In this document: positions 8,632 to 33,862 of the stretch, in pieces | Layout: each line of letters opens with the position of its first letter | How positions within the stretch are numbered: the stretch's first letter is position 1 | Assembly: GCF_004337505.1 (NCBI RefSeq) | Contig: NZ_SJZI01000001.1 | Span: 62,001 to 126,000 of the forward strand | Direction of reading: 5' to 3' | DNA from: Flaviaestuariibacter flavus | GTDB taxonomy: Bacteria > Bacteroidota > Bacteroidia > Chitinophagales > Chitinophagaceae | DNA: 64,000 nucleotides | The notes under the pieces: generated by a model | Seen by the model: the letters and a program-made list of their open reading frames with translations, nothing else | What the model was told of the DNA's origin: nothing | The model's database searches: none | Program-made: the position numbers and the translations under genes

Positions 8632-8645
8632 TAATCACGCAAACT

Positions 8646-18120: not shown

Positions 18121-19542
18121 TCAGGGTAGCTTGGAATAATATTCCAGGAGTTTTATCCTGAATAAAAGGTCATGCTCGGCAAGTGACAAGTCAAGCTTCG
18201 CCTTTTGCAATGCATTTCGTGCCAGTAACAGGTCTTGAGTGGAAAGCAAATTCAGGTTGAATTTTTTTTCAGCTGCTTCTGACACGAAAGTCGCTTCCGA
18301 TAACAGTCTTTTAGACAGGCCTACCTTCTTATTGGCGGCCACTGCTTCTGAATAAGCAGTATAGACCGCGACTTTGACATCCTGCCTGAACTTGTCTTTC
18401 TGAAGCTCGATTTCTTGCCGGCTGATCTCGTCGCGCTTGAGGCTGATGACGGCAGTTTTTCCATTCAAGATCGGAACGCTCAGGCTGATGCCGATATTCT
18501 GGCCAAAGTTTTTTTGAAGTTGGCGGAAGAAAGGTGTAACCCCGTAGGTGCCCGCGCTGTAGGAAGGCGCGACGACATCATAGTTTGTCCCGTTTACCTG
18601 TACTTTGGCCCCCGTAGGCTGTTGCGGCACATATACAAAGCTTTGCGCAGACGAAATGTTTACGAAGTTGCTGCCTGCCGAGCCGAAAAGCGAGAAGGTC
18701 GGGTACAGTGTGCTTTTCGCGGCTCTTATGCGCTCCCTTGCTGCCTGAATCCGGAATTCAATAGCTCGTCCCTGTGGAAGTTTATTTACGGCCTCGGCAT
18801 ATACGGCGTCGGGGAGCACTTGCGCGAGGAAAATTGACGGGTCGGTTTCTGCTGTCGGTGGCACCGGCTCCAACGGAAACCGGACGTCGAGCGCGAGAAC
18901 TGCCTTCAATTGCAGCGTCGCCTTCTCAAATGTCTGTTGGGCGGCCAATAAAGAGAGGCTATCGCTTAGTAGCTGCTGGCGTACTTGTGCTACGTCCAAT
19001 TGGGATAATACGCCCATTCTGGCTTTTTGGGCGACTGCCTCGTTTTGCACCACGCGCTGCTGCAAGTCAGCCGACACAATGCTTATCGTTTCTTTGGCCA
19101 AAAAAACCTGCAGGTAGGATGCGCTAACGGCCAATGCTACATCGTTTTCCGCCCCCTGTGCAGCCATGTCATCGGCCCTGGCTGCTGCCTGGGCGCTATT
19201 CAGCTGGTGGCGTTTCGAAAACCAGTTGAACAGGGTGACGCTCGTTGAAAGCGAAAAGCCGGAATTGAAAAAGTTGCTGCTTTGCAGGATTCCCGTTGTC
19301 GGGTTTTCAGAAAGTCCGAAGCGGTAACCTGCGCTGCTTGCAAAATTCATTGCCGGCCACATCGAAGCCCTGCTTTGATCCACGGTCAGCTGGGAGAGCC
19401 GCTTCTGAAGATCTGCTTCTTTTACAGAAATGTTATGTCGGACCGCATAATCAATGCATTCCTGTAAGGACCATTTTGCCTGTGCTTTTGTCAAAAAAGG
19501 GAGGGAAAGGAACCCTGCAATCAGAGCCAGCCTGTTTTTCAT
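18121..19542 (-). CDS. TolC-family outer membrane efflux protein of the peptide locus
   Basis: 473 residues with a signal peptide (ending 'LTKAQA') and the repeated long coiled helices of outer-membrane efflux proteins ('LQECIDYAVRHNISVKEADL', 'RAAKSTLYPTFSLFGSAGS', 'ARNALQKAKLDLSLAEHDL'). It forms the outer-membrane channel of a type I secretion line together with the HlyD-like and C39-ABC proteins encoded immediately upstream on the same strand. Spacing to the HlyD gene is 25 bp. The set should carry the peptide(s) of this locus out across both membranes. Confidence 0.92.
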   Translation of the reverse strand: MKNRLALIAGFLSLPFLTKAQAKWSLQECIDYAVRHNISVKEADLQKRLSQLTVDQSRASMWPAMNFASSAGYRFGLSENPTTGILQSSNFFNSGFSLSTSVTLFNWFSKRHQLNSAQAAARADDMAAQGAENDVALAVSASYLQVFLAKETISIVSADLQQRVVQNEAVAQKARMGVLSQLDVAQVRQQLLSDSLSLLAAQQTFEKATLQLKAVLALDVRFPLEPVPPTAETDPSIFLAQVLPDAVYAEAVNKLPQGRAIEFRIQAARERIRAAKSTLYPTFSLFGSAGSNFVNISSAQSFVYVPQQPTGAKVQVNGTNYDVVAPSYSAGTYGVTPFFRQLQKNFGQNIGISLSVPILNGKTAVISLKRDEISRQEIELQKDKFRQDVKVAVYTAYSEAVAANKKVGLSKRLLSEATFVSEAAEKKFNLNLLSTQDLLLARNALQKAKLDLSLAEHDLLFRIKLLEYYSKLP

Positions 19543-19567
19543 AAAGCATTTGTTTCACTGGTGAAGG

Positions 19568-20872
19568 TTATTGGTTCCAAAGCGTTCTCAATGGGTCAAA
19601 AAACCGGTCGAAAAGCTTGCGGTTATCTGTAATGATCTCTGCGCTCGCCAACATGTTGTTACGGAAAAACAAATCTTTCCGGTAGGATGTTGTGAGCCCT
19701 TCCGGCAGCCTCACCTGCACCAGGAAGCTGTCGCGCCGGTTGGGAAAGCTGGAAATAGAAGTCACTATGCCTTTTAAATTGCCGTATTGTTCGCTGGGAT
19801 AGTTGTCCACCTTCAGCCTTACCCGTTGGCCTTCTTTTATCTTGCCCAGGCCCGCCTGGCCCGCCATCAACTGAGCGTAATAGGTGGTTACTGCGGGCTG
19901 TACGTAGAATAATTCTTCGCCATTGCTGACTTGCATGCCTGGCTGTATCGGCGACAACAAGAACACCGTCCCGGTCTCCGGCGCTGTCAGCACATACCGT
20001 TGATTCCATTTTTCAATTTCACTTTTCAGCAGCAGCAGGGCGGTCATGAATTTTTGGTGCTGGTCGGCTACTGCTTTTTGCATGTCAAGCAATTCTTTTT
20101 GCTTGTTATGTGCCGACATATCGCTGTTAATGATCTGGGCTTCGGTTTGAGCGAGGTTTTGATCCTTCTGAAGAAGGGCTGTCCGGTATTTATTCAATTC
20201 GATGGGTGCTACGAACCTTTCTTTCGCCAGGGAATCGTAGGCAATAAATTCTGTTTCCTGCAGGTGCTTTTCCTGCCGGCTTAGCTCTTCCTGCCTGCCG
20301 ATATTCTTTTTTATCTCGGCCGTGAACAACAGGTCGCGCTGCAGCGCGAATTTCTTTTTTTGATAGTAGCCGTTGCCAAAGAATTGCCGGAGTTCATTCC
20401 ACTCGTGGACAAAAGACTGGTAAGGGTCCTGCAGATCGCCCAAGTTGGCCAAATGTACCGGATTGATATTGGTAAGATGGTCAACGTTCCCCGCGTTCAC
20501 GGCGGCGACCTCCTTTTGAAGCCAGGCCTGCAATTGCACTACTTCTCTATAGTCTGCGGTGTTTTCCAGCAGGGCCAGGCGCTGGCCGGCACTGACCCTT
20601 TCTCCGCTTTTCACGAAAATGCCGGTGATCGTTCCCTGGGAACGGGCAACGGAAGTCTTTGGCGCATTCAAAGCGACAATTCTTGCCGAGCCTTTTACCT
20701 GGTCGGGATACTGGATAAAAACGGTCAGCAGCACTATCGACAGCAGCACCATGAAAAACACGAAGCTGCCGTGGCGTACCATCCAGTTCGGCCGGTAGCT
20801 GACAATTTCCCGCACTTCATCGCTGATGATATCTTCCCTGAGTTGTTGGAGCCGGATCGTTGTTTGTGGCAT
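19568..20872 (-). CDS. HlyD-family membrane-fusion protein for peptide export
   Basis: 434 residues: cytoplasmic N-terminus, one membrane helix near 33-53 ('FVFFMVLLSIVLLTVFI'), lipoyl/barrel-sandwich halves ('TSVARSQGTITGIFVKSGER', 'LTAPETGTVFLLSPIQPGMQ') separated by a long coiled coil (about 115-280). It bridges the inner-membrane C39-ABC exporter and the TolC-like channel. Gene order exporter, adaptor, channel on the reverse strand is the usual bacteriocin-export arrangement in Bacteroidota. Confidence 0.92.
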   Translation of the reverse strand: MPQTTIRLQQLREDIISDEVREIVSYRPNWMVRHGSFVFFMVLLSIVLLTVFIQYPDQVKGSARIVALNAPKTSVARSQGTITGIFVKSGERVSAGQRLALLENTADYREVVQLQAWLQKEVAAVNAGNVDHLTNINPVHLANLGDLQDPYQSFVHEWNELRQFFGNGYYQKKKFALQRDLLFTAEIKKNIGRQEELSRQEKHLQETEFIAYDSLAKERFVAPIELNKYRTALLQKDQNLAQTEAQIINSDMSAHNKQKELLDMQKAVADQHQKFMTALLLLKSEIEKWNQRYVLTAPETGTVFLLSPIQPGMQVSNGEELFYVQPAVTTYYAQLMAGQAGLGKIKEGQRVRLKVDNYPSEQYGNLKGIVTSISSFPNRRDSFLVQVRLPEGLTTSYRKDLFFRNNMLASAEIITDNRKLFDRFFDPLRTLWNQ

Positions 20873-20893
20873 AGTTCAACATATTTGATTGCC

Positions 20894-20907
20894 GCCGTTA
20901 TAACGGC
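20894..20907. repeat. 14-bp perfect palindrome between exporter and HlyD genes
   Basis: GCCGTTATAACGGC reads the same on both strands and lies in the 70-bp gap between the exporter stop and the HlyD start. It has no T-run, so it is not a classical terminator. It could be an operator or an mRNA-stabilising hairpin. Confidence 0.4.
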
Positions 20908-20942
20908 ATTTGTCGGACAGGTCAGTACTTGGTTCAGCTTCT

Positions 20943-23312
20943 TCAGGCACCCAGCTCCAGCTGGTTTTTTACGAGCGTGAAATAGTCGCCTTTCAGATTC
21001 ACCAATTCCTGGTGGGTGCCCCGCTCGGTAATGATCCCTTTATGCAAAACCACAATCTGGTCGGCCTGTTTTACAGTGCTCAGGCGATGCGCCACTACAA
21101 CTACCGTTCTTCCTTCGAAGAATTCATGAAGGTTTTGAATGATCGTGTTTTCGTTGTTTGCATCAAGGCTGTTTGTGGCTTCGTCGAAAAAGATGAATTC
21201 CGGATCCCGGTAAACGGCCCGCGCGATTAATATGCGTTGTTTCTGGCCCGCGCTGATGCCGGTGCCCTCCGCCCCGATTTTGGTATTAAAGCCAAGTGGT
21301 AAGGCTTCGATGAACTCCCGGAGATTGGCCACTTCCGTTGCGCGACGCAGCTTTTCCATGTCCACCCTTTCAGCTCCCACTGCAATATTTCGGGCGATGG
21401 TGTCGGAAAAAATAAAGCTTTCCTGCATTACCACGCCGCAATGGCTTCGCCAGAATTTGTGGCTGATATTCGCCAAAGAGGTGGCCGAAAGCCGGATGTC
21501 GCCTTTTTGCGCCTCGTAGAACTTAAGCAGCAATTTGAGCAGGGTTGTTTTTCCGCTGCCACTGACACCAACGATTGCCGTTGTTTTGCCAACCGGTATG
21601 GTAAGATTGATATTGCGCAGAACAGGTTCATTTCCCGCCCCTGGGTAGGTAAAGGATACATTGTTGAAAGTAACGGCGTCTGTCGGTAGCCTTTTCTCAG
21701 CGGCAGGATTATGAGTAAAAGCAGGCGTTTCGCTCAGCGTTACCGATCGTACAACATTACTGAAGTCACGGGGCGCGCCCGGATGATGTTCGTATTCTCT
21801 CTGTAAAAGGACACCAGGCTCCAGGTAGCCTCCGCCAACCAGTTGCCTGGTAAATGACGCCGGCAACTCGAATTGCAACTGGCTGCTCTCGCGCTCTTCA
21901 TCGTCCAGGGTATGAATCTCGTTCAGGCGACCCATGCTGATTCGCGCATTCTGCCAGCTTTGCAGAAAACCGAGCAGTTGCTCAATGGGGCTGTTTAATT
22001 GGCCGATGATATATTGCACGGCTAACATAGCACCCAGCGTCATTTGCCCGTCTATTACAGATTTAGCGGCAAGAAAGGTGATGAAAATATTCTTTCCCTC
22101 GTTTACAAAAAAGGCGCCGGCCTGTTGCCATTGGGTTAATGAAAGTCCCTTCATGCTCAGTCGGAACATTCTTGCCTGCAAGCCTTCCCATGCCCAGCGC
22201 ATCGGCTTTTCAACCCCATTCAGTTTTATTTCCGTCATCCCCTGGATCAGCTGGATGGTGGCGCTCTGTTCTCTTGAAGCAACTTCAAACCGTTTATAGT
22301 CCAGTGCTTTGGCCTTTTTCAGGAAAGCCACTACCCAGACCGCATAAAGCAGGCTGGCAATAGCAAAAACCGCAAAGATGTTGCTGTTGAACAAAGCTAG
22401 TACAACCGAGAAAACGACAAGGTTGACCAGCGAAAACAGGGTGTTGAGTGAGGAGCCCGTCAGAAAGTTTTCAATACGGCTGTGATCGTTCATCCGTTGA
22501 AGAATGTCACCGGTATGCTTGCTGTCGAAAAAAGATACCGGCAGTTTCATTAGTTTGATGAGGAAGTCGGTTAGTATCGAGAGATTGATACGGGTGCTGA
22601 TGTGCAACAATATCCAGCTGCGTACAAACTCAACTGCAAGCCTGCCTGCAAAGAGCGCCAGTTGTGCTGCCAGGACAATGTAAATGAATTGCAGGTTGCC
22701 CGTATTGATGCCCGTGTCGACGACGCTTTGTGTCAGGAAAGGGAGTACCAGTTGGATTAGGCTTGACACGCCAAGGCCAAGCAAAAGTTGAAAGGCAAGC
22801 TTCTTATAGGGAAGAATGTATCGAAAGATGTTTTTTATCTGAAGCCCTTCTGTTTCACTGTCGGAGGTTAATTCATTTTTATAAAATGCAGGCGAAGGTT
22901 CGAGCAGGAGGACGATACCCTCCGGCCCGCGTTCTCCCATGTCGCCCGACCAATACGACGAAAATTCTTTTCGGGTGTATTCTACGAGTCCCTTTGCCGG
23001 ATCAGCAATGAATACCGTGTTTTTTTTCGCCTTGTATAAAACAACAAAGTGATTCTGTTTCCAATGAAGGATAGCCGGAAGAGCTGCCTCTTTTAACAAG
23101 GTGTCCAGGTCGATTTTGAAGGCTTTTGTCCGAAATCCGATTGCTTCCGCGGCCTCACTCAGGCCGAGCAGGTTAACGCCCTCCTTGCCGATCTGCGTCT
23201 TGTCGCGCAGGATCTGCAAAGGGATGTAGCGCCTGTAGTGTTTTGCAATCATCCTAAGGCAGGTAGGACCACAGTCCATCGCGTCCGGTTGCTTATAAAA
23301 GGGAAAGGCCAT
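20943..23312 (-). CDS. Peptidase-containing ABC transporter (C39 + membrane + ATPase)
   Basis: 789 residues. An N-terminal C39 peptidase with complete catalytic residues (Cys14 in 'DCGPTC', His88 in 'NHFVVLY', Asp104 in 'ADPAKG') is followed by six membrane helices (about 160-430) and an ATPase with 'GVSGSGKTT', 'ISAGQKQRI' and 'FIFFDEAT'. It cuts double-glycine leaders while exporting the peptide. The precursor at 23445-23678, encoded just upstream, ends its leader in 'VRGG', a matching substrate. About 70 extra residues lie between the membrane and ATPase domains (roughly 465-535), longer than usual. Their role is unknown. Confidence 0.95.
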   Translation of the reverse strand: MAFPFYKQPDAMDCGPTCLRMIAKHYRRYIPLQILRDKTQIGKEGVNLLGLSEAAEAIGFRTKAFKIDLDTLLKEAALPAILHWKQNHFVVLYKAKKNTVFIADPAKGLVEYTRKEFSSYWSGDMGERGPEGIVLLLEPSPAFYKNELTSDSETEGLQIKNIFRYILPYKKLAFQLLLGLGVSSLIQLVLPFLTQSVVDTGINTGNLQFIYIVLAAQLALFAGRLAVEFVRSWILLHISTRINLSILTDFLIKLMKLPVSFFDSKHTGDILQRMNDHSRIENFLTGSSLNTLFSLVNLVVFSVVLALFNSNIFAVFAIASLLYAVWVVAFLKKAKALDYKRFEVASREQSATIQLIQGMTEIKLNGVEKPMRWAWEGLQARMFRLSMKGLSLTQWQQAGAFFVNEGKNIFITFLAAKSVIDGQMTLGAMLAVQYIIGQLNSPIEQLLGFLQSWQNARISMGRLNEIHTLDDEERESSQLQFELPASFTRQLVGGGYLEPGVLLQREYEHHPGAPRDFSNVVRSVTLSETPAFTHNPAAEKRLPTDAVTFNNVSFTYPGAGNEPVLRNINLTIPVGKTTAIVGVSGSGKTTLLKLLLKFYEAQKGDIRLSATSLANISHKFWRSHCGVVMQESFIFSDTIARNIAVGAERVDMEKLRRATEVANLREFIEALPLGFNTKIGAEGTGISAGQKQRILIARAVYRDPEFIFFDEATNSLDANNENTIIQNLHEFFEGRTVVVVAHRLSTVKQADQIVVLHKGIITERGTHQELVNLKGDYFTLVKNQLELGA

Positions 23313-23398
23313 CAGAAAGAAAGATTTTAGGGAAATACTTTTGGCAGCGTCGATAGCTGGGTATTCTTATCGGCACGTTGCTGTTATGCAGTGGTAGG

Positions 23399-23434
23399 AA
23401 TAAGTCACACAGTGCGGGCACCATGTGACTTATT
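23399..23434 (-). other. Long hairpin between precursor gene and exporter gene
   Basis: AATAAGTCAC (23399-23408) is perfectly repeated in reverse complement at 23425-23434, with a second small stem GTGC/GCAC in the loop. It lies 10 bp after the stop of the double-glycine precursor and 86 bp before the exporter start. No strong T-run follows, so it is more likely a partial terminator or a 3' mRNA-protecting hairpin. Such structures commonly let a precursor be made in excess over its exporter. It could also be an operator palindrome. Confidence 0.55.
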
Positions 23435-23444
23435 TGCTGTCAGC

Positions 23445-23678
23445 TCAACACGGTGATGCCGGGCTGACCATCGCTACCGGGACCGGTCCGCAAAAGGAGG
23501 AACAAAAGCCACTGGCTGTGCCCGGGTCAGGATTGTCGGATGCTGACCGCAGTTCAGCGCTCCGGCCATCCTGGCAGAAGCAGCTGGTACTGGAGCAGCC
23601 TTCCGCGGCAAATCCACCCCGGACCATTTTTTGTTCCGTTTTGTTCAGGCTCCTGCCGAAATCTTGAATTTTTTTCAT
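23445..23678 (-). CDS. Double-glycine-leader, cysteine-rich bacteriocin/RiPP precursor (peptide i)
   Basis: 77 residues from ATG at 23676-23678. The frame is open further upstream, but that part contains the conserved non-coding element at 23706. Leader residues 1-22 (MKKIQDFGRSLNKTEQKMVR then GG) match the 'SLsKtEQKxIxGG' leaders frequent in Chitinophagaceae. The core of 55 residues has six Cys (GCSSTSCFC, GFCSSFC, final SPC) and many Ser/Thr. The C39 exporter next door should cleave after GG. Thioredoxin-like partners in the locus suggest disulfides; the LanB could instead dehydrate Ser/Thr. Mature form unknown. Confidence 0.82.
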   Translation of the reverse strand: MKKIQDFGRSLNKTEQKMVRGGFAAEGCSSTSCFCQDGRSAELRSASDNPDPGTASGFCSSFCGPVPVAMVSPASPC

Positions 23679-23705
23679 GATCTGAAACTGTTTGTTTGAA
23701 ATGGT

Positions 23706-23736
23706 GGCCTGGGTTGAGGTACCGGGCTCTTTTACC
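23706..23736 (-). promoter_or_regulatory. Conserved 31-bp element, copy 1 (upstream of peptide i)
   Basis: Matches 26978-27008 at 27 of 31 positions and lies 27 bp before the ATG of peptide i; copy 2 lies 29 bp before the ATG of peptide ii. The shared core on the + strand is AGGTACCGG followed by CTTTTACC. The two copies fall in different reading frames relative to their genes, so protein conservation does not explain it. Probably a promoter, operator or 5'-UTR regulatory element. Confidence 0.65.
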
Positions 23737-23781
23737 ATCCGCTGTTGCTGCGGAATTATGTCGCTTTCTATAGCAGTTGGT

Positions 23782-25392
23782 TTAATTCAGTGGTTTTACT
23801 GCTTTGAGGAGAACCAGCTTTTCCAAAAGCTTGTGTAGCAGGTTATAAAAAGCATCACGGTGACTGAGCAGGATTTCCTGGTCTACCATGCTTTCGAGTT
23901 GCTGGAACAGTTCCCGGATTTCTACCGGCTGCCCGAGTTGCTGCAACATTGCAAACTGGATCTCGTCCAGGTCTTCCAGCGAGATGTTCCCTTCTGAAAC
24001 TTCCGCGATGAGCAGATTGTAGAAAGTTCCTTTTCTGAAGGCCCATTCTTCGTAATACTGCACCCCGCAGCGTGTGCGGCTGTTGTAAAGTCCGGCCCAG
24101 TCGAATTCGGTGACGATAACGCTACATTCATCGGTTTTCGACACTTTTTTAGCCAGGACATCGCCCCCGTTAAAAATTGAGTCGTACCAATCGTCTGCTG
24201 ACAGGTCGCGGCCATACAAATATGGCTGGCTGAATGAAGAGCTGGCTGTCCATTCAGCGGTCCGGGTCCGGAAGGCCTCGTAGTCGGCCTGTAGGTTAAA
24301 GTATTCCGGCGGCGGCCCTGCCTGGATGATATCTTTTACAAATATGTCCATAAGGCCGAAGGGTAACGTTGATTTCGCCACATCGGCAGTGACGGACGAC
24401 TCCCGCGCGAAAACCGGTTTTTCGAGGTAAGCCGTTTTAGCCAGCTCCGGCAATGCTTTGAGCTCTTTCTCCGTACGCCTGCCGTAAAAGCGGCTCATAA
24501 AGTGCTGCGGTACCTTTCGGTTGCACAGGGACATGATCTTATAGTAATATTCGGGGTACAGCGACCGGAATTTCGATGCCATCTGCCGGCAGGTCACCTC
24601 GTCTTTTTTGAAATGTCCGAGTAGGTGCAGGTAGGTCCTTTTCACCGGGGCTTCATGAAAGTTTCCCAGGTACATGTAGCCCCGGTCGTAAAACGGCTCG
24701 GGAAAGAGATAGGTGATGTCGAGGCCGCTTTCACGAGCCATGCAATAATACAAGTGCTGCTCGAAGAAAACGTTGAAGCGGTCGACGTTGATCCGGGACA
24801 GGGAGGGAATGTTTCTATCGACATATTCCATCGCCGACGCGGCATAGGCGTTGAGGAAGGCGGTGTTCGTGCCTCCGAGTATACCGGCATTTACAGCCAT
24901 GATGGGAACATCTTTCGCAAAATCGTCTTTTACAGAAGGCGGGAAATACGAAAAATGGCTCGTAAGCATTTTTTGCGTCGACGTGTAGTATTCAGTGGCC
25001 ACTTCCGGATTCTGGGCAACCAGCCCTGCGCCGTGGAGTGTATTGCTGAACTTCTCAAACAGGAATACATCGCCGTCTACGTGCAAGAAGGGCTCGTTCT
25101 GCAATGAGTAAGTCCAGATCTTCGGGAGGGCCCAGAGATTCGGGTGCGGAAGCCCGAAAGAGTCGTGGGTGTCGTGTACCTGTGCATAGGGGAGTTCCAG
25201 GTCTTCTACCAACAGGCTGATGGCGGCACTGTTGCCATACAATTCTACTTCTCCGTACAGGGATCGTAGCTGGAGCGCGCTGAACGCCCAGCTGATCAGG
25301 TGGTACTCCGGCCGGGCCCAGCCGCAACTTTGCTCGTATGGGTTTTGGTTACCAATCAGGTAACAGGTTTGAACAAGTTTTGTCTTTGCCAT
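23782..25392 (-). CDS. Glycosyltransferase-like protein of the peptide locus (DUF6734-like)
   Basis: 536 residues, no signal peptide or membrane helix. The N-terminal 300 residues have a glycosyltransferase-A look: a conserved opening 'SCGWARPEYHLISWAFSAL', a DxD-type 'FLHVDGDVFLF' and 'VNAGILGGT'. From memory this resembles the DUF6734 group found beside Bacteroidota peptide clusters; I could not confirm the name. The last 110 residues ('EEWAFRKGTFYNLLIAEVS' onward) look helical and slightly like a winged-helix leader-binding domain, which is speculative. It sits between the TlpA-like gene and peptide i on the same strand, so peptide modification is the natural guess. Confidence 0.55.
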   Translation of the reverse strand: MAKTKLVQTCYLIGNQNPYEQSCGWARPEYHLISWAFSALQLRSLYGEVELYGNSAAISLLVEDLELPYAQVHDTHDSFGLPHPNLWALPKIWTYSLQNEPFLHVDGDVFLFEKFSNTLHGAGLVAQNPEVATEYYTSTQKMLTSHFSYFPPSVKDDFAKDVPIMAVNAGILGGTNTAFLNAYAASAMEYVDRNIPSLSRINVDRFNVFFEQHLYYCMARESGLDITYLFPEPFYDRGYMYLGNFHEAPVKRTYLHLLGHFKKDEVTCRQMASKFRSLYPEYYYKIMSLCNRKVPQHFMSRFYGRRTEKELKALPELAKTAYLEKPVFARESSVTADVAKSTLPFGLMDIFVKDIIQAGPPPEYFNLQADYEAFRTRTAEWTASSSFSQPYLYGRDLSADDWYDSIFNGGDVLAKKVSKTDECSVIVTEFDWAGLYNSRTRCGVQYYEEWAFRKGTFYNLLIAEVSEGNISLEDLDEIQFAMLQQLGQPVEIRELFQQLESMVDQEILLSHRDAFYNLLHKLLEKLVLLKAVKPLN

Positions 25393-25437
25393 CGTCGGAT
25401 GAATTTTTATGAAAATGATTGCTCGTCGATTGCCATG

Positions 25438-26529: not shown

Positions 26530-26715
26530 CGTGTTGATAGGAACAAATTGAAACCGGTTATGGGCGTTGCCAGGATAGGGAATCGGCCGCGGCGATAAAC
26601 CATTTTCTTGTGCTGGAGAATTTAGTAATTGGTGGTTCCGTCCTGGCAGGGTGCCGGAGGCGCGGAAAGGGTGACAGAAACCTTCTGAATAGGGCATATG
26701 TGCGAAAAAGGAAGA

Positions 26716-26743
26716 AAACCCGGTTATGGAAATAACCGGGTTT
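26716..26743 (-). terminator. Rho-independent terminator after peptide ii
   Basis: Perfect 12-bp stem (AAACCCGGTTAT / ATAACCGGGTTT) with a 4-nt loop, 11 bp after the stop of peptide ii. On the reverse strand a T-rich tract (TTTTCTTCCTTTTTC) follows. It should separate the peptide ii transcript from the TlpA-like gene. Confidence 0.85.
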
Positions 26744-26753
26744 AAGATTATCA

Positions 26754-26948
26754 TCAGATGCAGCATCTCCAGTCGTAAACACCGGGGCCGGTGCTTTCTG
26801 CACGGTAGCCGTTCCAGGCACAGGCGCCGACCTGTACGATCGTGCCGGTACATGCTTTGATCGTGCTGTCGCCGCTGCCGGCAACGATGGACTTCATTTC
26901 TTCGCGGGAGAGTTTGTTCTCAATTTGAGCGATGGTCAATTTTTTCAT
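26754..26948 (-). CDS. Small precursor-like peptide with four cysteines (peptide ii)
   Basis: 64 residues from ATG at 26946-26948. The leader-like start (MKKLTIAQIENKLSREEMKS then IVAGS) resembles Bacteroidota natural-product precursors, with a G-S/A-G cleavage-type end rather than a strict GG. The core has two 'ACTG/ACAW' cysteines, an STIK start and a 'WRCCI' tail. It lies between the VKOR/DsbA fusion and the TlpA-like gene, has its own terminator, and is preceded by copy 2 of the conserved 31-bp element. Likely disulfide-bonded or lanthionine-type; not determinable here. Confidence 0.75.
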   Translation of the reverse strand: MKKLTIAQIENKLSREEMKSIVAGSGDSTIKACTGTIVQVGACAWNGYRAESTGPGVYDWRCCI

Positions 26949-26977
26949 CGTTAAGACTTTTGTCGATTGATTGATTT

Positions 26978-27008
26978 GGCCCGGGTTAAGGTACCGGACG
27001 CTTTTACC
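26978..27008 (-). promoter_or_regulatory. Conserved 31-bp element, copy 2 (upstream of peptide ii)
   Basis: Counterpart of 23706-23736 (27 of 31 identical), 29 bp before the start of peptide ii. Just upstream on the coding strand is a TTTG..CAAA dyad around TGTGCACA (about 27010-27027), which copy 1 lacks. The spacing to the ATG is nearly the same in both copies. Confidence 0.65.
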
Positions 27009-27046
27009 TTTGTTGTGCACACAAAACGTTGGAAGCCGGGAAGGCT

Positions 27047-28651
27047 TTATAGTAAATGATTTAGATCTTCGATCCGGTATGCCGCCGGCAATTGGTAGCC
27101 GTTAACAAAAAATGTCGGTGTGAACATTATTGCATTCTGGTCGCACCAGTTTTTCATGTCATTCAGCTTTTCGCCAAGGGGAAAAGGGAACTCTTGTAAG
27201 GGGCGCGCTTTCGCGAAAGCCGGGTATTCTTTTCTCGGCGATCCGTACCAGTGGTCAAGCGCCTGTACCAGGGCTGCTTCATTGTCCAGCTCCTGAACTG
27301 TAAGGAAATGTTTAATCACCCTGGAAATATCATTTTCGGCGTCTGCAGCGGTAAAGATGATCCGGACATTCACCCGGCCGGTAGCCAGCAGCGCATCTAT
27401 ATGCTTATGAGCATTTGCACAGGGGCCGCAAAACGGGTTACAAACCTTCACTAGTGTGTGCTCGGCGTCCGGGTTGCCTAAGCTCAGGCCCAGCCCTTCT
27501 GTTGAACCGGCGATCTTCTTTTGGCGGTGCAATAATGCCGCGAAGACTTCTTTGTTGTATTTGAACTTATTCAGTTCTTTCTTAAAATGTTTGCCTGCCT
27601 GTGCGTCGAAATAGGCTTTTTTTGATGCCACCCAAAACAATGCGGGAAGGAGAAAGGAGGTTAAGATGGTGAACTGCGCCTGGTACGATGGCAAATGGAA
27701 GCTTTTCCCGTTGTTCCAATACCCGAAATAGCAAGTAATGGCTTCGGTTACGAGAAGGGCCTGTATTGCCAGGCAAAGTGGGCACCACTGTTTCGCAACC
27801 CGCCATTGGTAATAAACAGAATAAACTGTGTAAGGCAGGGCCAGGAGATTGATCCACGATAAAAGCGCCAGGGCACTGGTAGACGCAAGGGCCAAGGCCA
27901 GGAATGAACCTGTGAAATAACAGAAACCGATCTCGCTCCAGCTAAGCCAGTTGAAAACTTTGGCACCCCTCGATCCTAAAACTGCGGTGCAACTCGTTTT
28001 GTTGGTCCCGGAGCAGATCTGTTGCAGTAGGGGGTTCGTTTTGTCGACTTCGAACCAGAGCAGCAGCACGGTGGCGGAGCAACCGAGAAGTTTCGTAAAC
28101 AAAAGTGCGGTCATAGCGTGGCCGGCTGCATTTGCATTAGCCAGGATTGCGAAGAGTACGAACAACAGCAATCCCGCTCCGCAAATCAACGGTGCACGCA
28201 ATCCCGAAAGCAGTTCCTTCCTTTTCCTGGATGCATATTTTTCTTCACCGGAAAGCTCGTTTTTTTCAGCAAGCAGGGCCGTATTTGTCCAGTTTTTCAA
28301 GAACTCCTCTCGGCTCAGATGCTCTTTGCGGCCTCTTTCGTTGAAAAAATCGACTGTGCCATTTACGTTGTTGACCATCACGAAGCTGCCGCCTCCCCGG
28401 TTTACATGGGCGATAAATGGCGTCGGAAGCTGATCGAGCGTTTGCGGATCCACTTCAATGGCAGCGTTCGCTACCTTCCAGGTATTGAGGCTGTCGCTGA
28501 TACTGTACAAGCTTGGAAAGTCAGGATGTCCTTCAACCTTTTCAATGGCGGAGGAGGCTGTGACAGGAATCTTCAGTTTTTTCAGTAGTTGAAGCGTCGC
28601 CTCAGAGACATTGGAGCTGCTTTTTTTCTCAAGCAATCGGGCCAATCGCAT
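27047..28651 (-). CDS. C39-like / VKOR / DsbA-type disulfide-forming membrane fusion protein
   Basis: 534 residues in three parts. Residues 1-130 resemble a C39 peptidase domain ('VEGHPDFPSLYSISDSLNTW', 'PFIAHVNRGGGSFVMVN') but have no catalytic cysteine, so it is probably a peptide-binding relic. Residues 145-350 form a vitamin K epoxide reductase (VKOR) domain with several membrane helices, paired cysteines ('CSGTNKTSC') and the active 'WCPLC'. Residues 380-534 are a thioredoxin/DsbA-like domain with 'CNPFCGPCANAH'. Together they could form disulfides and recycle oxidant via quinone. Position between peptides iii and ii suggests these peptides are the substrates. Confidence 0.85.
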   Translation of the reverse strand: MRLARLLEKKSSSNVSEATLQLLKKLKIPVTASSAIEKVEGHPDFPSLYSISDSLNTWKVANAAIEVDPQTLDQLPTPFIAHVNRGGGSFVMVNNVNGTVDFFNERGRKEHLSREEFLKNWTNTALLAEKNELSGEEKYASRKRKELLSGLRAPLICGAGLLLFVLFAILANANAAGHAMTALLFTKLLGCSATVLLLWFEVDKTNPLLQQICSGTNKTSCTAVLGSRGAKVFNWLSWSEIGFCYFTGSFLALALASTSALALLSWINLLALPYTVYSVYYQWRVAKQWCPLCLAIQALLVTEAITCYFGYWNNGKSFHLPSYQAQFTILTSFLLPALFWVASKKAYFDAQAGKHFKKELNKFKYNKEVFAALLHRQKKIAGSTEGLGLSLGNPDAEHTLVKVCNPFCGPCANAHKHIDALLATGRVNVRIIFTAADAENDISRVIKHFLTVQELDNEAALVQALDHWYGSPRKEYPAFAKARPLQEFPFPLGEKLNDMKNWCDQNAIMFTPTFFVNGYQLPAAYRIEDLNHLL

Positions 28652-28755
28652 AACGGACGTTTTCGGGTATGGTAGTCCGGGCGGCGCTTCTGAAAGTTCT
28701 CAGGAGCCGCCGGGTTTCGGTATAGCATCTGTACTGACGGTGTTCAGCCCACCCC

Positions 28756-28926
28756 TTACTTAGGGAGCTTCTGCTGGAAAAGCACGGGAGGCAGCCCGGT
28801 GCCGGTGATCGTGATCGTTGTGGTAGTGGGATCGGTGGGCAGGCTAAAATTGTTGTTGTGCTTGTTTGAGTATACAACCAGGGTTCTCGGTCTGATTTTC
28901 AGGGAAAGGTTCTTTGTATTTCTCAT
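28756..28926 (-). CDS. Threonine-rich, cysteine-free LanB-type precursor candidate (peptide iii)
   Basis: 56 residues from ATG at 28924-28926; an in-frame GTG 18 bases earlier is less likely. The leader-like start MRNTKNLSLKIRPRTLVVYS resembles class I lanthipeptide leaders of Bacteroidota ('LSL..rTL'). The remainder contains 'PTDPTTTTITITGTGLPP' and ends in 'QQKLPK'. There is no cysteine, so no thioether could form. The Thr run is an obvious target for the LanB dehydratase of the locus (dehydrobutyrines). It is divergent from the LytS-type kinase gene, and a 7-bp inverted repeat touches its start codon. Confidence 0.6.
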   Translation of the reverse strand: MRNTKNLSLKIRPRTLVVYSNKHNNNFSLPTDPTTTTITITGTGLPPVLFQQKLPK

Positions 28927-28927
28927 C

Positions 28928-28948
28928 GTTAGTGTTTGTTTCACTAAC
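28928..28948. promoter_or_regulatory. Inverted repeat abutting the start of peptide iii
   Basis: GTTAGTG (28928-28934) and CACTAAC (28942-28948) are perfect 7-bp arms around a 7-nt T-rich spacer, ending one base before the ATG of peptide iii. It may be an operator in this divergent region or an mRNA hairpin that hides the start codon. The rest of the 110-bp divergent gap to the kinase GTG (29037) shows nothing else certain. Confidence 0.55.
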
Positions 28949-29036
28949 CTACTTATTCAGCTCTTTTGCGGAATGAATATTACACGTCCCGCGATATTCT
29001 GTAGATGATTTTCATTTTTCCGTATATTTAGTGTAA

Positions 29037-30149
29037 GTGAAAACGCGCTGGTTTTTGGATCGATATCGTACTCTTCTCTATCATTTGGCCGGATGGCTGA
29101 TTTTTATTGCGTATGAGGTTTCATTCGTAAGTCTGATCCGTATTTCGGGCAGGGATTTTTCCGTGTTGCATCTGTTTGTCATTCCCTACCTGGTGAACAT
29201 ATCGCTGTTCTATTTCCATTCCCTGTTCACATTCCCTGTTGCTATGTCGGGGCGAAGGAAAAATGGGTTCATTTTCCTGGCGCTCATTGCATCGGAGCTG
29301 TTTGTGTACCTGCTTATAATGGGCCTGAAGGACGTGGGACGCGGTCCGGACAAGGGCGTTTTTTTCTTAAACCTTTACCGGGATCGGATTGCATTTATAC
29401 AACAGTTATGGCGGGGGATTTATTTCCTGATTTTCAGTTCCGCCTTCTGGTTCATTCAGCGAACGTTTCGAAACGAGCGATTGTTGAAGGAGGCTGAGAA
29501 GAAAGACCTGCTGCGCATCCAGGAAAAAAAGGACCTTGAATTGCTGCTCGTTTCCACACAGAATGCATATTTAAAGTCGCAGGTGAACCCGCACCTTTTG
29601 TTTAACACACTCAACCTGATTCACAGCGAGATTCAACAGCTGTCGCCGGTGGCATCCGATGCCATCATCGGGCTTTCGGACATGATGCGCTATTCCCTGG
29701 CACCCTCGGAAATGGATGGCAAAGTCTTTCTTGAAGAGGAAATAGCACAGATCGAGAATCTTATCGGTATTAACCAGCTTCGGTTCAGAACAAAACTGAA
29801 TATTGAAGTTCAGATGGAAGGGCACTTCGGGCATCTGCGCATCGTGCCGCTATTGTTAATCCCTTTTGTTGAAAATCTGTTTAAGTATGCTGATCTCATG
29901 GATGAAGCAGATCCCGCTGTCATCAAGATCCATGCACGCGGTTCGACGCTTTGTTTTAAAGCCGGCAACCGGAAGAAGACTGGTCGTGTACTGCCGTCGC
30001 ACGGAATCGGCATAACAAACGTCCGGACACGACTGAACGCCCGCTATCCCGCGATGCATCGCCTTAAGATCGAAGAAACCCGTACTCATTTCAGGGTTGA
30101 GCTGAACCTAAACCTACACTGCAGTTATGCTGAGTTGCTACATCATTGA
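29037..30149 (+). CDS. LytS/YehU-type sensor histidine kinase
   Basis: 370 residues, starting with GTG at 29037. Four membrane helices in the first 145 residues are followed by the HisKA-7TM-type phosphoacceptor block 'VNPHLLFNTLN' (His186) and a short ATPase domain ('VPLLLIPFVENLFKYA', 'HGIGITNVRTRL'). It pairs with the LytTR regulator that overlaps its 3' end by 23 bp. In peptide loci such pairs usually sense the product or envelope stress and control production or immunity. Signal unknown. Confidence 0.92.
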   Translation: MKTRWFLDRYRTLLYHLAGWLIFIAYEVSFVSLIRISGRDFSVLHLFVIPYLVNISLFYFHSLFTFPVAMSGRRKNGFIFLALIASELFVYLLIMGLKDVGRGPDKGVFFLNLYRDRIAFIQQLWRGIYFLIFSSAFWFIQRTFRNERLLKEAEKKDLLRIQEKKDLELLLVSTQNAYLKSQVNPHLLFNTLNLIHSEIQQLSPVASDAIIGLSDMMRYSLAPSEMDGKVFLEEEIAQIENLIGINQLRFRTKLNIEVQMEGHFGHLRIVPLLLIPFVENLFKYADLMDEADPAVIKIHARGSTLCFKAGNRKKTGRVLPSHGIGITNVRTRLNARYPAMHRLKIEETRTHFRVELNLNLHCSYAELLHH

Positions 30150-30858
30150 TGATGAATTTCATTCAATCAAGAGTCTTTCGAAGTATATTGATGATACACC
30201 GTTTATCGAGTTGGTCGGTTATAACGAGAACCCGGTAGCGGCGCTGGCCCAATTCCAGCAAATGAGCCGATACCCGGATATCATTTTCCTGGACATTGAA
30301 ATGCCCCAGCTTTCAGGACTGGAAATGTCTTCACTGCTCAAGGACAAGACGGCGATTGTTTTTACCACGGCGCACCCGGGATTTGCGTTGGAGGCTTTTG
30401 AGTTGGAGATTCGTGATTATTTGTTGAAACCCGTATCGTACCAGAGGTTCCTCAAATGCGTTACGAAACTTCAGGAACAGCTCTCCCCGAAACTGAACCC
30501 AGTTCCGGAGAAGACCGATGCATTCTTTTATATTCAGAGCGAGGGCAAGGGGAAGCTGCTGAAGGTGTTTACGAATGAAATCGTGTTTATCGAAAGCAAA
30601 AAAAATTATGTATCGATAAGTACGGTGCAAGGCAATAGCCTGACCTACCTTACGTTAACCGAAATCGAAGAAAAACTTCCCCCGTTCTTTTTGAGAATCA
30701 GCAAATCGCACATCATCAATTCGCATAAGATTACTTCCGTTCAGGGTAACGAGGTCAGGATGCAAAACAACGCGCAGGGTTTCCTGGTGGGACCGAGTTA
30801 TAAAGCGGCGTTCCAGGCTTATATGGACACACATCTGATCAGATCGAAACGCCTGTGA
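30127..30858 (+). CDS. LytTR-family response regulator
   Basis: 243 residues: receiver domain with phosphoacceptor Asp56 in 'PDIIFLDIEMPQLSGLEM' and 'LKPVSYQRF', then a LytTR DNA-binding domain (about 135-240, 'IVFIESKKNYVSISTV', 'FLRISKSHIINSHKI'). It is co-translated with the kinase. It probably binds direct or inverted repeats in the divergent region at 28928-29036 or near the 31-bp elements, which is a guess. The 3' end overlaps the convergent LanB gene by 20 bp. Confidence 0.93.
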   Translation: MLSCYIIDDEFHSIKSLSKYIDDTPFIELVGYNENPVAALAQFQQMSRYPDIIFLDIEMPQLSGLEMSSLLKDKTAIVFTTAHPGFALEAFELEIRDYLLKPVSYQRFLKCVTKLQEQLSPKLNPVPEKTDAFFYIQSEGKGKLLKVFTNEIVFIESKKNYVSISTVQGNSLTYLTLTEIEEKLPPFFLRISKSHIINSHKITSVQGNEVRMQNNAQGFLVGPSYKAAFQAYMDTHLIRSKRL

Positions 30859-33800
30859 TTTCTTGCTGGTTTTTGTGAAAGGTCATGGCCAGTTGACGGT
30901 AGGTAAAGTAGTATGTGACCATTTCCCAATAACGTTGGTTGTAGGTAAAGAGCCGATTCAGATGCATGTGAATGATGTCCGCAGCCAGCTTTTCGGGATA
31001 CACGCCCGAAGCCTGGATATTCGAGGCGGTTCGTACCAGATCCGTGATATTCCGGGCGAGCCGTTTGTATGTCTTGCTGTTGCTTCTATAGTTTTCGGCG
31101 AGGGTTTGCGTAAGCAGTTTTTTGTATCCCCTTTCAATATCTGTTTTCACGTCCTTAGGATTGTCAAATTCGGACAGAAACCGGTCGAACTGGCGCCGGC
31201 AAAAGGCGATTTGCTCCTGCTGGTCAAATCCAAAAGATGGCAGCATTTCGAATACAGATCTGACACCTGTAGAGATTTTTGTTTCATCTGTTTGATTCTG
31301 CCCTTTGTTCTTTTTTAAAAAGGCCCCGATGATCTCGCTGCTTTCCTGGAAGATTCCTTCGACCGGGACTATCAGTTCAGGTGAGTACCGTTCTGTTTCC
31401 CGTTTATAGCGGTCGGTCTCACAGCTGCGCACCAGCTTCATTCCAATGAGTTTGTTCAGGCGGCTTGTCAGTGCGCCAATAATGTCTGCTCTGTTTTCTG
31501 GCAGCGTTCTTATGCGCAGGCGCAGGTGATAGTCGGGGTCGTTATAACGTATCCAAAACCATTCAATCGTGGCTTCTTTTTTCCAGTGGGTTATGAGGGG
31601 CAATATGTGTTTCTGCAAAATAAGGTCGGAGGATAGCGGGTGGCAGTAGATTTTGACATAGTACCAGTCGCTGGTGTCGGCGATTGAAGGCCGGCATGAT
31701 TTAGTGCCCTGTGGATCTGCTACCCGGTAAACTTTTTCCTCCCGGTATATCGGTGCTATAAACTGCCCGGTCAACGGCTCCCGCTTCGTATTGAACACCC
31801 CGTTTGCCCGGATAAATGGAAATTCACGCAGTACGATATTTTTCTTCCCGCTTATTTCCTGCAGCAGCAAGTTTATTTCACTTTCAACGGTCGTGTCGAT
31901 CACGAGAAAGTTATCGTGCACTACATAGGCCAGGTATCTGGGAAGGCTCCTTTTCGTTACCAGGCTCTTGAAGTTTTTCACCGCTTCTGTTTCGGTCGGC
32001 GCATCGAGCAGGTCTTTGGCCGGAAAATGCCATTCTGCAAGGTGCAGAACGCAGGATTTGTACGTTACTCTCGGGTAAAACTGCAGCCCGGGAGCCAGCG
32101 TGGACAAGGAAAGAGTAAGATTCGTTTTGAGCTCCTGCTTTTGCAGTTCGCATAGGAAGCGGAATACCGGGTAGGCGTTCCGGGTGTAGTTATATGCCGA
32201 GGATAGCTGCGGAATAACAAACTTCCGGAGACGTTTGGAATAAAGGCGGATCTGGTTCTCTTTTACGGAAACGTAGAGATCGGCTAGCTGTATTTGTTTG
32301 TCCTGCGCCAGTTTTGACGTTGTAAGCACCGGGATTTCGTATTGCACTAATGATGGTCGCCGGTTGATGTTTGCCGCGTGCAAATCGCAGACATGGGCCA
32401 CTTCAGCGAAAACCACGTCCTCGTTGCAGGTCTGCTCCTTTTCTGCTATTTCTTTTGCCAGTGGGTAGATGGCGTCTGATCCCGCAAAGCGCCCCAGTAG
32501 CGATAGCGCCGTGTTGCCTCCCGCTTGTTCGATATATACCTGTTCGCCCATAGGCCGAAATATTACCGAAAGGCTCGGCGCCAGGTTGCTGTCCCGGTTA
32601 CCGGCTGAAAGTGCCGCTAAATGATCGTCGGTTATTACCAGCTCATCTATCCCCGCACCGGCGTTTTTTGCGATCCACTCCCGGAGCAAAACTGAAGTCT
32701 CGTCCTGGAAAGAGGTGCTGCTGCCGGCCGGCTCTGGCGTTTTCGTAACGGGGATCGTAAACAGGGTGCTGTCGAGTATCTTGTCCAGATTCCCATAGCC
32801 GATTCCAAATTGCGGGTCAAGCGCCTCGAGGAGCGGAACTTCCCCGGTCTCATATTTTTCTGCGAATCGTTTTTTGAAGTTCTCCAGGTCCGGGTGCGCT
32901 GATATTGATGAAAGCCGGTCAAGGCATGACAAGCCATCCAGCAATTGTTTCTGATAGCGGATCGGAAGTTGACCGCTTTCAACTTTTCGCTCGCTGGTAG
33001 CATAAAATGGATTTGCCGATCTGGATTCTGAAAGCGATTCAAGGGTAGCCAGCCCGTCTGCGATTTCTGCAAGCGCTTTCCCGTATTCTGCCCCGGTATC
33101 GATTTTCGTAGCGACCGCTGTTGCGTTGAGTGAAAGATGCCTCGAAAGGTGCTGAAGTACAATCGACGTATAATCTGCGCCTGTAATATTGGGGGCCGTA
33201 GGGGGGAGGAGAATTTGTTCTTCAGCTAATTCCCCAAGAAACCGCCTGGCTGGTTCGGGTTCTGCATTCGTTTCTTTGATAATGAAAGTAATTATCTCGT
33301 CGAAGGTTCGCCCATTGTTGCAATAAAGCAGGAGCTTTTTGAGAAACGCATTCCGGTCGATAGAGACCATGGAAAAGCAGGCTTCCTGGCCTTCGCCGAA
33401 TTCTCTCTTGGTGTAGCGCAGGTCGATCTTGCTGTGAAAAAGCGAGTGGTTAACAACGTAAACTCCCTCCGGCTTTTCGTGTTTCAGAAACGTTTGCCAT
33501 AGATTGAAAAGTAAGGCATAGTCGGGTTTCACGTCCACCACGGGCGATCCAACAGTGAGATCATTTTCCGTATTGTCTCCCCATCTAACGGCTGAAAACG
33601 AGGCAAAAAGGCCAAACGGCGTAGACCGGTACGATGCGCGGTTCAGGTATTTCCTCACGCTCATTTTCTGTTTGTCGCTCAGCGCGTCATAGGAGAAGTC
33701 TTTTCGCAGCAATTCTTCATAAAAGTTGCGGCTGGCCAGGAAAATGGCCAGTTGAAAATCCGGCGTTTTTAAGATGGTATTCTCATTTATGCCGCGGTAT

Positions 33801-33862
33801 TGTTGAAAACTGTAAAGAGGTGTCCGGAGCATCAGTGTCTCGGAAAACTGAAATTTGATCAT
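30839..33862 (-). CDS. Full-length LanB-type lantibiotic dehydratase with SpaB C-terminal domain
   Basis: 1007 residues. The glutamylation domain spans about 1-700 and contains the conserved 'ASYRSTPFGLFASF' (residues 77-90). The elimination domain (SpaB_C / thiopeptide-type) spans about 730-1000, beginning 'WYYVKIYCHPLSSDL' and including 'EWFWIRYNDPDYHLRLRI'. Such enzymes use glutamyl-tRNA to dehydrate Ser/Thr in precursor peptides. Unlike the split dehydratases of pinensin-type Chitinophaga clusters, both halves are in one chain. No LanC-like cyclase is encoded in the locus. It is read convergently to the LytTR regulator and separately from the rest of the cluster. Confidence 0.93.
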   Translation of the reverse strand: MIKFQFSETLMLRTPLYSFQQYRGINENTILKTPDFQLAIFLASRNFYEELLRKDFSYDALSDKQKMSVRKYLNRASYRSTPFGLFASFSAVRWGDNTENDLTVGSPVVDVKPDYALLFNLWQTFLKHEKPEGVYVVNHSLFHSKIDLRYTKREFGEGQEACFSMVSIDRNAFLKKLLLYCNNGRTFDEIITFIIKETNAEPEPARRFLGELAEEQILLPPTAPNITGADYTSIVLQHLSRHLSLNATAVATKIDTGAEYGKALAEIADGLATLESLSESRSANPFYATSERKVESGQLPIRYQKQLLDGLSCLDRLSSISAHPDLENFKKRFAEKYETGEVPLLEALDPQFGIGYGNLDKILDSTLFTIPVTKTPEPAGSSTSFQDETSVLLREWIAKNAGAGIDELVITDDHLAALSAGNRDSNLAPSLSVIFRPMGEQVYIEQAGGNTALSLLGRFAGSDAIYPLAKEIAEKEQTCNEDVVFAEVAHVCDLHAANINRRPSLVQYEIPVLTTSKLAQDKQIQLADLYVSVKENQIRLYSKRLRKFVIPQLSSAYNYTRNAYPVFRFLCELQKQELKTNLTLSLSTLAPGLQFYPRVTYKSCVLHLAEWHFPAKDLLDAPTETEAVKNFKSLVTKRSLPRYLAYVVHDNFLVIDTTVESEINLLLQEISGKKNIVLREFPFIRANGVFNTKREPLTGQFIAPIYREEKVYRVADPQGTKSCRPSIADTSDWYYVKIYCHPLSSDLILQKHILPLITHWKKEATIEWFWIRYNDPDYHLRLRIRTLPENRADIIGALTSRLNKLIGMKLVRSCETDRYKRETERYSPELIVPVEGIFQESSEIIGAFLKKNKGQNQTDETKISTGVRSVFEMLPSFGFDQQEQIAFCRRQFDRFLSEFDNPKDVKTDIERGYKKLLTQTLAENYRSNSKTYKRLARNITDLVRTASNIQASGVYPEKLAADIIHMHLNRLFTYNQRYWEMVTYYFTYRQLAMTFHKNQQEITGVSI

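Follow-up and report, generated by a model that had tools for sequence, protein, structure and literature searches.

The locus and its genes

The window analysed here is a stretch of 64,000 nucleotides from Flaviaestuariibacter flavus (assembly GCF_004337505.1, contig NZ_SJZI01000001.1), and its positions 18121-33862 hold a peptide natural-product locus in which a single-chain LanB dehydratase is found without a LanC cyclase. A first-pass annotation of this DNA had named a C39-ABC/HlyD/TolC export line, three precursor genes, two thiol-redox proteins, a glycosyltransferase-like protein, a LytS/LytTR pair and the LanB, and all of these parts are present as open reading frames (ORFs) and domain profile matches (Table 1). 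A full-length LanB without LanC is confirmed as well, with PF04738 and PF14028 matched and PF05147 absent from the interval. The locus most likely joins two modules, module A at 18121-28651 and module B at 28756-33862. The three small peptides are all plausible ORFs. Homology ties only the one in module B to LanB, and the remaining two have leaders of the GG/GS type.

Table 1. Genes at positions 18121-33862 of the window; the starts of the three small peptide ORFs are the analyst's choice, based on Met codons.
Feature	Position	Strand	Basis
TolC-type outer-membrane channel (OEP)	18121-19542	minus	PF02321 150.5 bits
HlyD-type periplasmic adaptor	19568-20872	minus	PF13437
Peptidase-C39 ABC exporter	20943-23312	minus	PF03412, PF00664, PF00005
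Cys-rich peptide with GG leader (...SLNKTEQKMVRGG)	23445-23678	minus	small ORF, Met-based start
DUF6734 protein (the glycosyltransferase-like protein of the first-pass annotation)	23782-25392	minus	PF20508 312.5 bits
TlpA/AhpC-TSA-type thioredoxin	ORF 25438-26853, inferred start 26529	minus	PF00578 54.8 bits
Cys-containing peptide with bacteriocin-like leader (...NKLSREEMKSIVAGS)	26754-26948	minus	Met-based start
C39-like/VKOR/thioredoxin fusion	27047-28651	minus	PF03412, PF07884, PF13462
Putative LanB precursor peptide, 56 aa	28756-28926	minus	Met-based start; member of the precursor family
LytS-type sensor histidine kinase with membrane-embedded N-terminal part	29037-30149	plus	PF06580 68.3 bits
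LytTR response regulator	30127-30858	plus	PF04397 63.3 bits, PF00072 55.8 bits
Single-chain LanB, 1007 aa	30839-33862	minus	PF04738 327 bits, PF14028 181.8 bits

The precursor peptide and its family

The putative precursor of module B reads ...LSLKIRPRTLVVYSNKHNNNFSLPTDPTTTTITITGTGLPPVLFQQKLPK, with a leader (...LSLKIRPRTLVVY...) and a core (...PTDPTTTTITITGTG...) that holds eight Thr residues; the whole peptide is free of Cys and has no GG site. An alignment of six LanBs served as the query against a collection in which each species is represented by a single genome, and the best 80 of 332 relatives were kept with flanks of up to 10 kb; the duplicate loci L036, L037 and L042 (the same as L067, L072 and L113, respectively) were dropped from the set of loci. 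A hidden Markov model (HMM) built from 22 Thr-rich peptides, most of them chosen near LytS, was then searched against 16,986 small ORFs from these loci and the window at a cut-off of E ≤ 0.01, and it places precursor homologues at 44 distinct loci after removal of two duplicates. The hosts include Chitinophaga, Niastella, Pontibacter, Pedobacter, Mucilaginibacter, Daejeonella and others. There is no LanC match in the examined flanks of the 44 loci, and the best match of the precursor HMM inside a LanC locus has an E value of 0.23. Since proximity to LytS guided the choice of most seeds, the number of precursor loci is in part built in, unlike the outcome of the whole-genome test described below.

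The family comprises 79 precursor ORFs (including a fragment and an ORF of L127 in which one base is unread), 76 of them distinct after trimming, and the gene is present as a single copy at 29 loci and as two to eight copies at 15. The common plan, seen in an alignment of 39 peptides (A2), is a leader close to K-K-T-[LV]-F-x-[YF]-K and a core close to T-D-P-T followed by spaced Thr residues. Cys occurs in six of the 76 distinct precursors, and two of the six have it solely upstream of the probable start Met, so that four have Cys outside an N-terminal extension; four precursors end in Cys (L041 twice, L074 and L122), and that of L074 has an internal Cys in addition. Precursors are under purifying selection: a simple count over 23 related pairs gives pN/pS values of 0.22 (first half) and 0.21 (second half), and values near 0.2 fit translated, constrained peptides.

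With 39 members scanned per library, no Pfam or NCBIfam model for the precursors was found; the matches of individual members, all to unrelated models, are no better than E 0.003. Compared with 13 class I leaders of Bacteroidota, the leader profile scores 13.6 over 15 columns, against at most 12.2 in 100 column shuffles, with an hhalign probability of no more than 12%, a weak hint that the new leaders may have descended from class I leaders by loss of the GG half. A DPT-rich peptide of L038 (5856-6122), with one Cys in its leader part, is not detected by the precursor HMM.

A module kept across lineages

The 44 precursor loci span 12 lineage labels (six genera, three metagenome-assembled genomes and three further genomes), and their neighbours were grouped by clustering all ORFs that reach 70 aa (blastp at 1e-8, coverage of 60% of the longer sequence), with families at four or more loci reported. 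What is kept is LanB (44/44), LytS (43/44) and LytTR (43/44). No further family that occurs in more than one label exceeds six loci. Those present in three or more labels, named by sequence reading, are a SusC-like one (six loci, five labels), a SusD-like one (six loci, four labels) and a TlpA-like one (four loci). Within Pedobacter alone (29 loci) more families recur, at up to 22 loci, among them a TolC-like family at 15 and an RND-pump-like one at ten, both about 10 kb from LanB and again named by sequence reading; this recurrence may be mere chromosome synteny or may reflect a role in export. TlpA-, SusD- or DoxX/MauE-like genes were also read nearby at L037, L038, L041 and L145, not all at each, and in Chitinophaga tropicalis (L067) a NusG-like gene and then apparent non-ribosomal peptide synthetase genes follow the module.

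The arrangement is largely kept as well. The precursor is divergent from LytS at 40 of 43 loci, and LanB is convergent with LytS/LytTR at 39 of 43 (for L067 the gap was measured to a second, upstream regulator pair, the near LytTR overlapping LanB). In the window, 93 bp separate the divergent ORF starts of precursor and LytS, and LytTR overlaps LanB tail to tail by 20 bp. C39-ABC-type exporters are not part of this plan, as C39-ABC matches above 500 bits occur at two of the 44 precursor loci (the window and L092) versus six of the 24 LanC-linked loci of the tree described next, with flank lengths that differ between the two sets.

A quick LG+G4 tree of 70 single-chain LanBs, which has no outgroup and omits LanBs below 2.4 kb (the split ones and L071) as well as 16 of the 29 Pedobacter precursor loci, contains a branch with 100% SH-aLRT that separates 38 LanBs, 28 of them precursor-linked, from 32, of which 24 are LanC-linked. 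The precursor side further holds nine unlabelled LanBs and L063, and the LanC side eight with neither label. A single change is needed for the precursor and LanC labels, and because of this split the LanC-less state with a precursor looks like the trait of a lineage and not like scattered loss. Divergent Thr-rich peptides lie by LytS in several of the nine unlabelled rows (L038, L069, L070, L082 and L085). At L063:9998-18537, from Pontibacter litorisediminis, a precursor-side LanB without recognised regulators or precursor of its own directly adjoins a LanC-LanB-C39 set that has its own Cys-rich GG peptide.

In a test independent of the loci, 298 genomes of the same order were searched with the A2 profile. 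It matches four of them, once each (our own genome, G039, G006 and G350), every time with a LanB match some 3 kb from the precursor match; overall, LanB is present in 27 of the 298. The match in our own genome is the peptide at 28756-28926 (E 4e-15, its own row being included in A2); G039 and G006 likewise have rows in A2, and G350 was held out of all profile building. In this held-out genome (L145), LanB lies at 6448-9210 on the plus strand, LytTR and LytS lie on the minus strand and end against LanB, and the peptide is divergent from LytS.

Absence of LanC

The whole-genome LanC search proposed with the first-pass annotation was carried out with the PF05147 (LANC_like) profile over the entire assembly of 3.96 Mb (52 contigs, 85.8% complete). 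The single match, on contig C8 (L001:4-2535), is part of an 843-aa ORF with DUF4135 and LANC_like domains, that is, a class II LanM; a free-standing LanC was not found in this assembled genome. As the sole LANC_like match sits in a LanM on another contig, the LanB of the window has no LanC partner here. Among 25 whole host genomes of such LanBs, which are the analyst's selection from all hosts, 20 lack any LANC_like domain, among them G350, G039 and G084, which are listed as 99-100% complete (the LanB of G084 has no recognised precursor). The incompleteness of our own assembly matters less because of these 20 genomes.

A survey of 147 genomes of the same family gives LanB in 21 and LanC-like domains in 24. 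Pairing by coordinates finds LanC within about 4 kb at 18 of the 29 LanB places and none near at 11, which are our own place and the ten loci L032-L041 (L037 begins at a contig end). At L035, L036, L037, L038 and L041 the LanB lies tail to tail with LytTR-LytS and a short Thr-rich peptide lies beside LytS, with no C39-ABC match in the 12-20 kb around them.

Eight LanBs on the LanC side of the tree are also without a LanC match in the examined stretch (L032, L033, L034, L096, L111, L128, L076 and L077), and at L032, L033 and L034 the LanB adjoins C39-ABC and HlyD matches. The same holds for the examined flanks of 15 split-LanB loci from Chryseobacterium, Flavobacterium and Aquimarina (L075, L078, L079, L080, L083, L086, L087, L090, L091, L093, L094, L097, L102, L104 and L109). 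Peptides with GG-type leaders (KKLSLKKLQLTK-like) are found at 14 of these 15 loci, and nine of 17 such peptides are Cys-free after the GG. The split-LanB loci could possibly represent a second LanC-less LanB type.

Integrity of the LanB enzyme

A profile of 26 family LanBs matches the structures of MadB (9g04), NisB (4wd9, 6m7y), MibB (5ehk) and TbtB (6ec7). Read from the alignment, NisB R14, R83, R87, R786, E823, R826 and H961 correspond to R13, R75, R79, R783, E822, R825 and H965 of the window LanB, the counterparts of R14 and H961 being placed by motif outside the part of the alignment shown. R13, R75 and R79 are conserved in 25/25 rows (one row lacks the N-terminus) and R783, E822, R825 and H965 in 26/26; Y72 and W611 are nearly or fully invariant. 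In NisB itself, H961A and Y80F abolish dehydration, R14A, R83A, R87A and W616A impair it and T89A does so slightly (PMC4341554). The AlphaFold model of the window LanB (pLDDT 81.1, pTM 0.70) matches MadB (E 2e-48, TM 0.6), MibB, NisB, TbtB and GodF. There is no sign that a catalytic half has been lost.

PEARLs are LanB-like peptide aminoacyl-tRNA ligases without the glutamate-elimination domain. This identity was considered for the window protein and rejected, as PF14028 is matched at 181.8 bits with E822, R825 and H965 kept.

Regulatory features

By hydropathy, LytS has three hydrophobic segments. The distances between precursors follow those of the LytS sensor part (partial r 0.40) more than those of the kinase part (0.13; permutation p 0.001) across 34 related loci, from which three were excluded for a missing H-box pattern and L099 for a missing LytS. 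Such covariation fits a peptide-sensor pair without showing one.

The repeat spacing expected for LytTR dimers is 21-22 bp. Direct repeats of 9-mers with at most one mismatch are found before precursors in 13 of 41 regions at 21 bp and in 11 of 41 at 22 bp, with about one expected each from shuffles and one each observed at 20 and 23 bp. Before control genes of the same loci the counts are 16/310 (21 bp) and 7/310 (22 bp), and upstream of LanB they are 4/43 and 0/43. A scan of 28500-29100 in the window found no sigma-70 promoter, and a terminator scan of the same interval gave one plus-strand terminator-like site, about as in shuffles.

A linear dehydrobutyrine peptide as the probable product

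The explanation that we favour, and hold to be probable, is that 28756-33862 is a self-contained module of precursor, LanB and LytS-LytTR which would make a linear dehydrobutyrine peptide serving as a signal and/or an antimicrobial. LanB would recognise the leader of the precursor, glutamylate Thr (and Ser) residues of the core using glutamyl-tRNA and then eliminate glutamate, and the product would be a linear peptide with several dehydrobutyrines, in which no thioether ring is expected because there is neither Cys nor LanC. The divergent precursor gene would be under the control of LytTR, and LytS, the membrane kinase, would probably perceive the peptide or some cue linked with it; the peptide could then act as an autoinducing signal and/or as a signal-controlled antimicrobial. 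We infer dehydration, regulation, export, leader removal and function alike from sequence comparison. The earlier suggestion of dehydration without thioether rings holds up as a prediction, and by loci, tree and hosts as a trait of the whole LanB group.

Several observations weigh against this explanation. Among the gene families present at four or more loci, none that accompanies the module in several lineages is an exporter or a leader peptidase, which leaves the exit of the peptide from a Gram-negative cell unexplained and is the main gap of the model. Nine of the 38 precursor-side LanBs, and L063, have no precursor detected by the profile, and the precursor label needs six changes on the tree if unlabelled LanBs are counted as lacking a precursor. 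LanC-like genes are present elsewhere in five of the 25 hosts, and also in G006 and G101. In the enzyme, the counterpart of NisB T89 is Thr in 22 of 25 rows and replaced in three. As for regulation, the LytS/LytTR pair is also found at some LanC-linked LanB loci and is therefore not peculiar to the LanC-less type; precursor distances correlate slightly better with LanB (r 0.69) than with the LytS sensor part (r 0.66). The LytTR-like repeats are clear mainly in related Pedobacter, for which reason they are not counted as proof, and the best pair in the window (8/10) is not clear. Finally, the separation of the two modules is not strict: DUF6734 lies about 4 kb (L095) and about 10 kb (G071, L141) from a LanB with LanC, and in the window about 105 bp separate the end of the precursor from the VKOR gene, which follows it on the same strand, and no minus-strand terminator was recognised, so that co-transcription of the precursor with the neighbouring module is possible.

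The absence of exporter and immunity genes suggests a signal more than a classical bacteriocin. A tentative idea, with a likelihood well short of even, is that a Bacteroidota LanB lineage has moved outside the lantibiotics and, with LytS, LytTR and a Cys-free peptide, may serve a quorum-sensing-type circuit whose pheromone would be a linear poly-dehydrobutyrine peptide. A functional variant that is compatible with the same chemistry, and which we regard as a serious possibility short of an even chance, is a linear dehydropeptide antimicrobial with linaridin-like chemistry, for which LytS/LytTR would do no more than regulate, in answer to stress or to signals from the envelope. Linaridins have a linear form and dehydrated Thr residues, and one of them, corynaridin, kills bacteria (PMC9927463). 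On the other hand, none of the genes found next to the four parts in several lineages is an immunity or export gene, and the precursor follows the sensor more than the kinase part of LytS, although the sequences are related and the sensor may simply evolve faster. The two roles need not exclude each other, as nisin induces its own synthesis (PMC4341554).

The neighbouring genes bear on a further alternative, in which the interval is one hybrid locus, with at least one of the peptides modified by LanB and the same product then completed by the disulfide and DUF6734 enzymes and exported together with the C39 line. Module A has the features of a C39-exported bacteriocin-like system, with GG-type-leader peptides beside C39-ABC and HlyD, and the leader of the peptide at 26754-26948 weakly matches NF047798/TIGR04149, below the cut-off. 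The contiguity of the parts and the position of the precursor just ahead of the VKOR gene favour a hybrid, which gained weight from DUF6734 lying near LanB-LanC pairs in L095 and G071, and C39-ABC or VKOR genes are found 5-9 kb away at some split-LanB loci of Flavobacteriia. Against it stands G060, one of six genomes among the 147 of the family with DUF6734, in which DUF6734, C39-ABC, HlyD, a VKOR fusion and two GG-leader Cys-rich peptides lie together in 16 kb (L140) without a LanB match, the LanB of G060 being on another contig. In addition, the other 43 module-B loci have no VKOR or DUF6734 match and a single C39-ABC above 500 bits (L092), and the LanB peptide has no GG site, in contrast to the GG/GS leaders of the other two. 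A hybrid locus is therefore unlikely; the earlier proposals that dehydration is combined with disulfides or glycosylation, and that the C39 line serves the LanB product, find no support, and module A is most likely a second peptide system beside the LanB module.

It is very improbable that the locus makes an ordinary class I lanthipeptide with a LanC encoded elsewhere in the genome or in its unassembled part, a reading to which the 85.8% completeness of the assembly and the LanC domain of the LanM on contig C8 lend something, and against which stand the Cys-free precursor and the 20 hosts without a LanC-like domain, three of them at least 99% complete. Least credible of all is a decayed remnant with a LanB retained by chance and no working product, as the precursor-less L063 might suggest, since the key residues are invariant over 26 LanBs of several genera and the precursors, frequently present as tandem copies with up to eight ORFs per locus, show purifying selection.

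Comparison with known systems

As far as was searched, the LanB module is a widespread, coherent and undescribed type of peptide modification. Among the matches listed, judged by their titles and the beginnings of their abstracts, no paper on LanC-less LanBs with Cys-free precursors was found. The mining of PMC7268733 began at LanC-like domains, defined class I by a LanB within seven genes and discards Cys-less peptides as lanthipeptide precursors; it would not list LanC-less loci because of this starting point. Bacteroidota genomes with several LanBs, only one of them near LanC, are mentioned in PMC3091789, and PMC10352776 reports no LanB in Bacteroidales. LanC-anchored mining passes over loci of the present kind, and a peptide family in at least six named Bacteroidota genera may have been overlooked. 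If the explanation is right, LanB would be a stand-alone peptide-modifying enzyme, and the module a compact four-gene system for dehydration without cyclisation.

The nearest relatives are the class I lanthipeptides (NisB/NisC, the pinensins and the Pedobacter lusitanus peptides), with which the module shares the full-length LanB, its domains and the key residues of NisB; the start of the leader also resembles Bacteroidota class I leaders (LxLxKx5L, PMC7268733). It differs from them by the lack of a linked LanC, by the Cys-free core and by the lack of a GG site and of a C39 exporter. Within its limits, the contrast drawn earlier to the split-LanB pinensin clusters is correct. With the linaridins (cypemycin, corynaridin) the likeness is one of predicted product type, a linear peptide with Thr converted to dehydrobutyrine, the dehydration there being ascribed to crdG/E/L homologues and not to a LanB (PMC9927463).

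The fold of the window LanB matches the thiopeptide and goadsporin enzymes TbtB (6ec7) and GodF (9jhq). These are LanB-type dehydratases from systems without lanthionine rings, where their partners are azole-forming and cyclising enzymes and the cores are different; no azole-forming or cyclising family was noticed, by sequence reading, among the recurring neighbours of the module. A different kind of parallel is provided by Agr quorum sensing (AgrB/D/C/A), which follows the same plan of a peptide, a modifying enzyme, a membrane kinase and a LytTR-type regulator, AgrA itself carrying a LytTR domain. The modifying enzyme is AgrB in the one and LanB in the other, and the module is likened to Agr by gene linkage, orientation and covariation. 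Should the signal reading be true, the module would constitute a modified-peptide signalling circuit in Bacteroidota.

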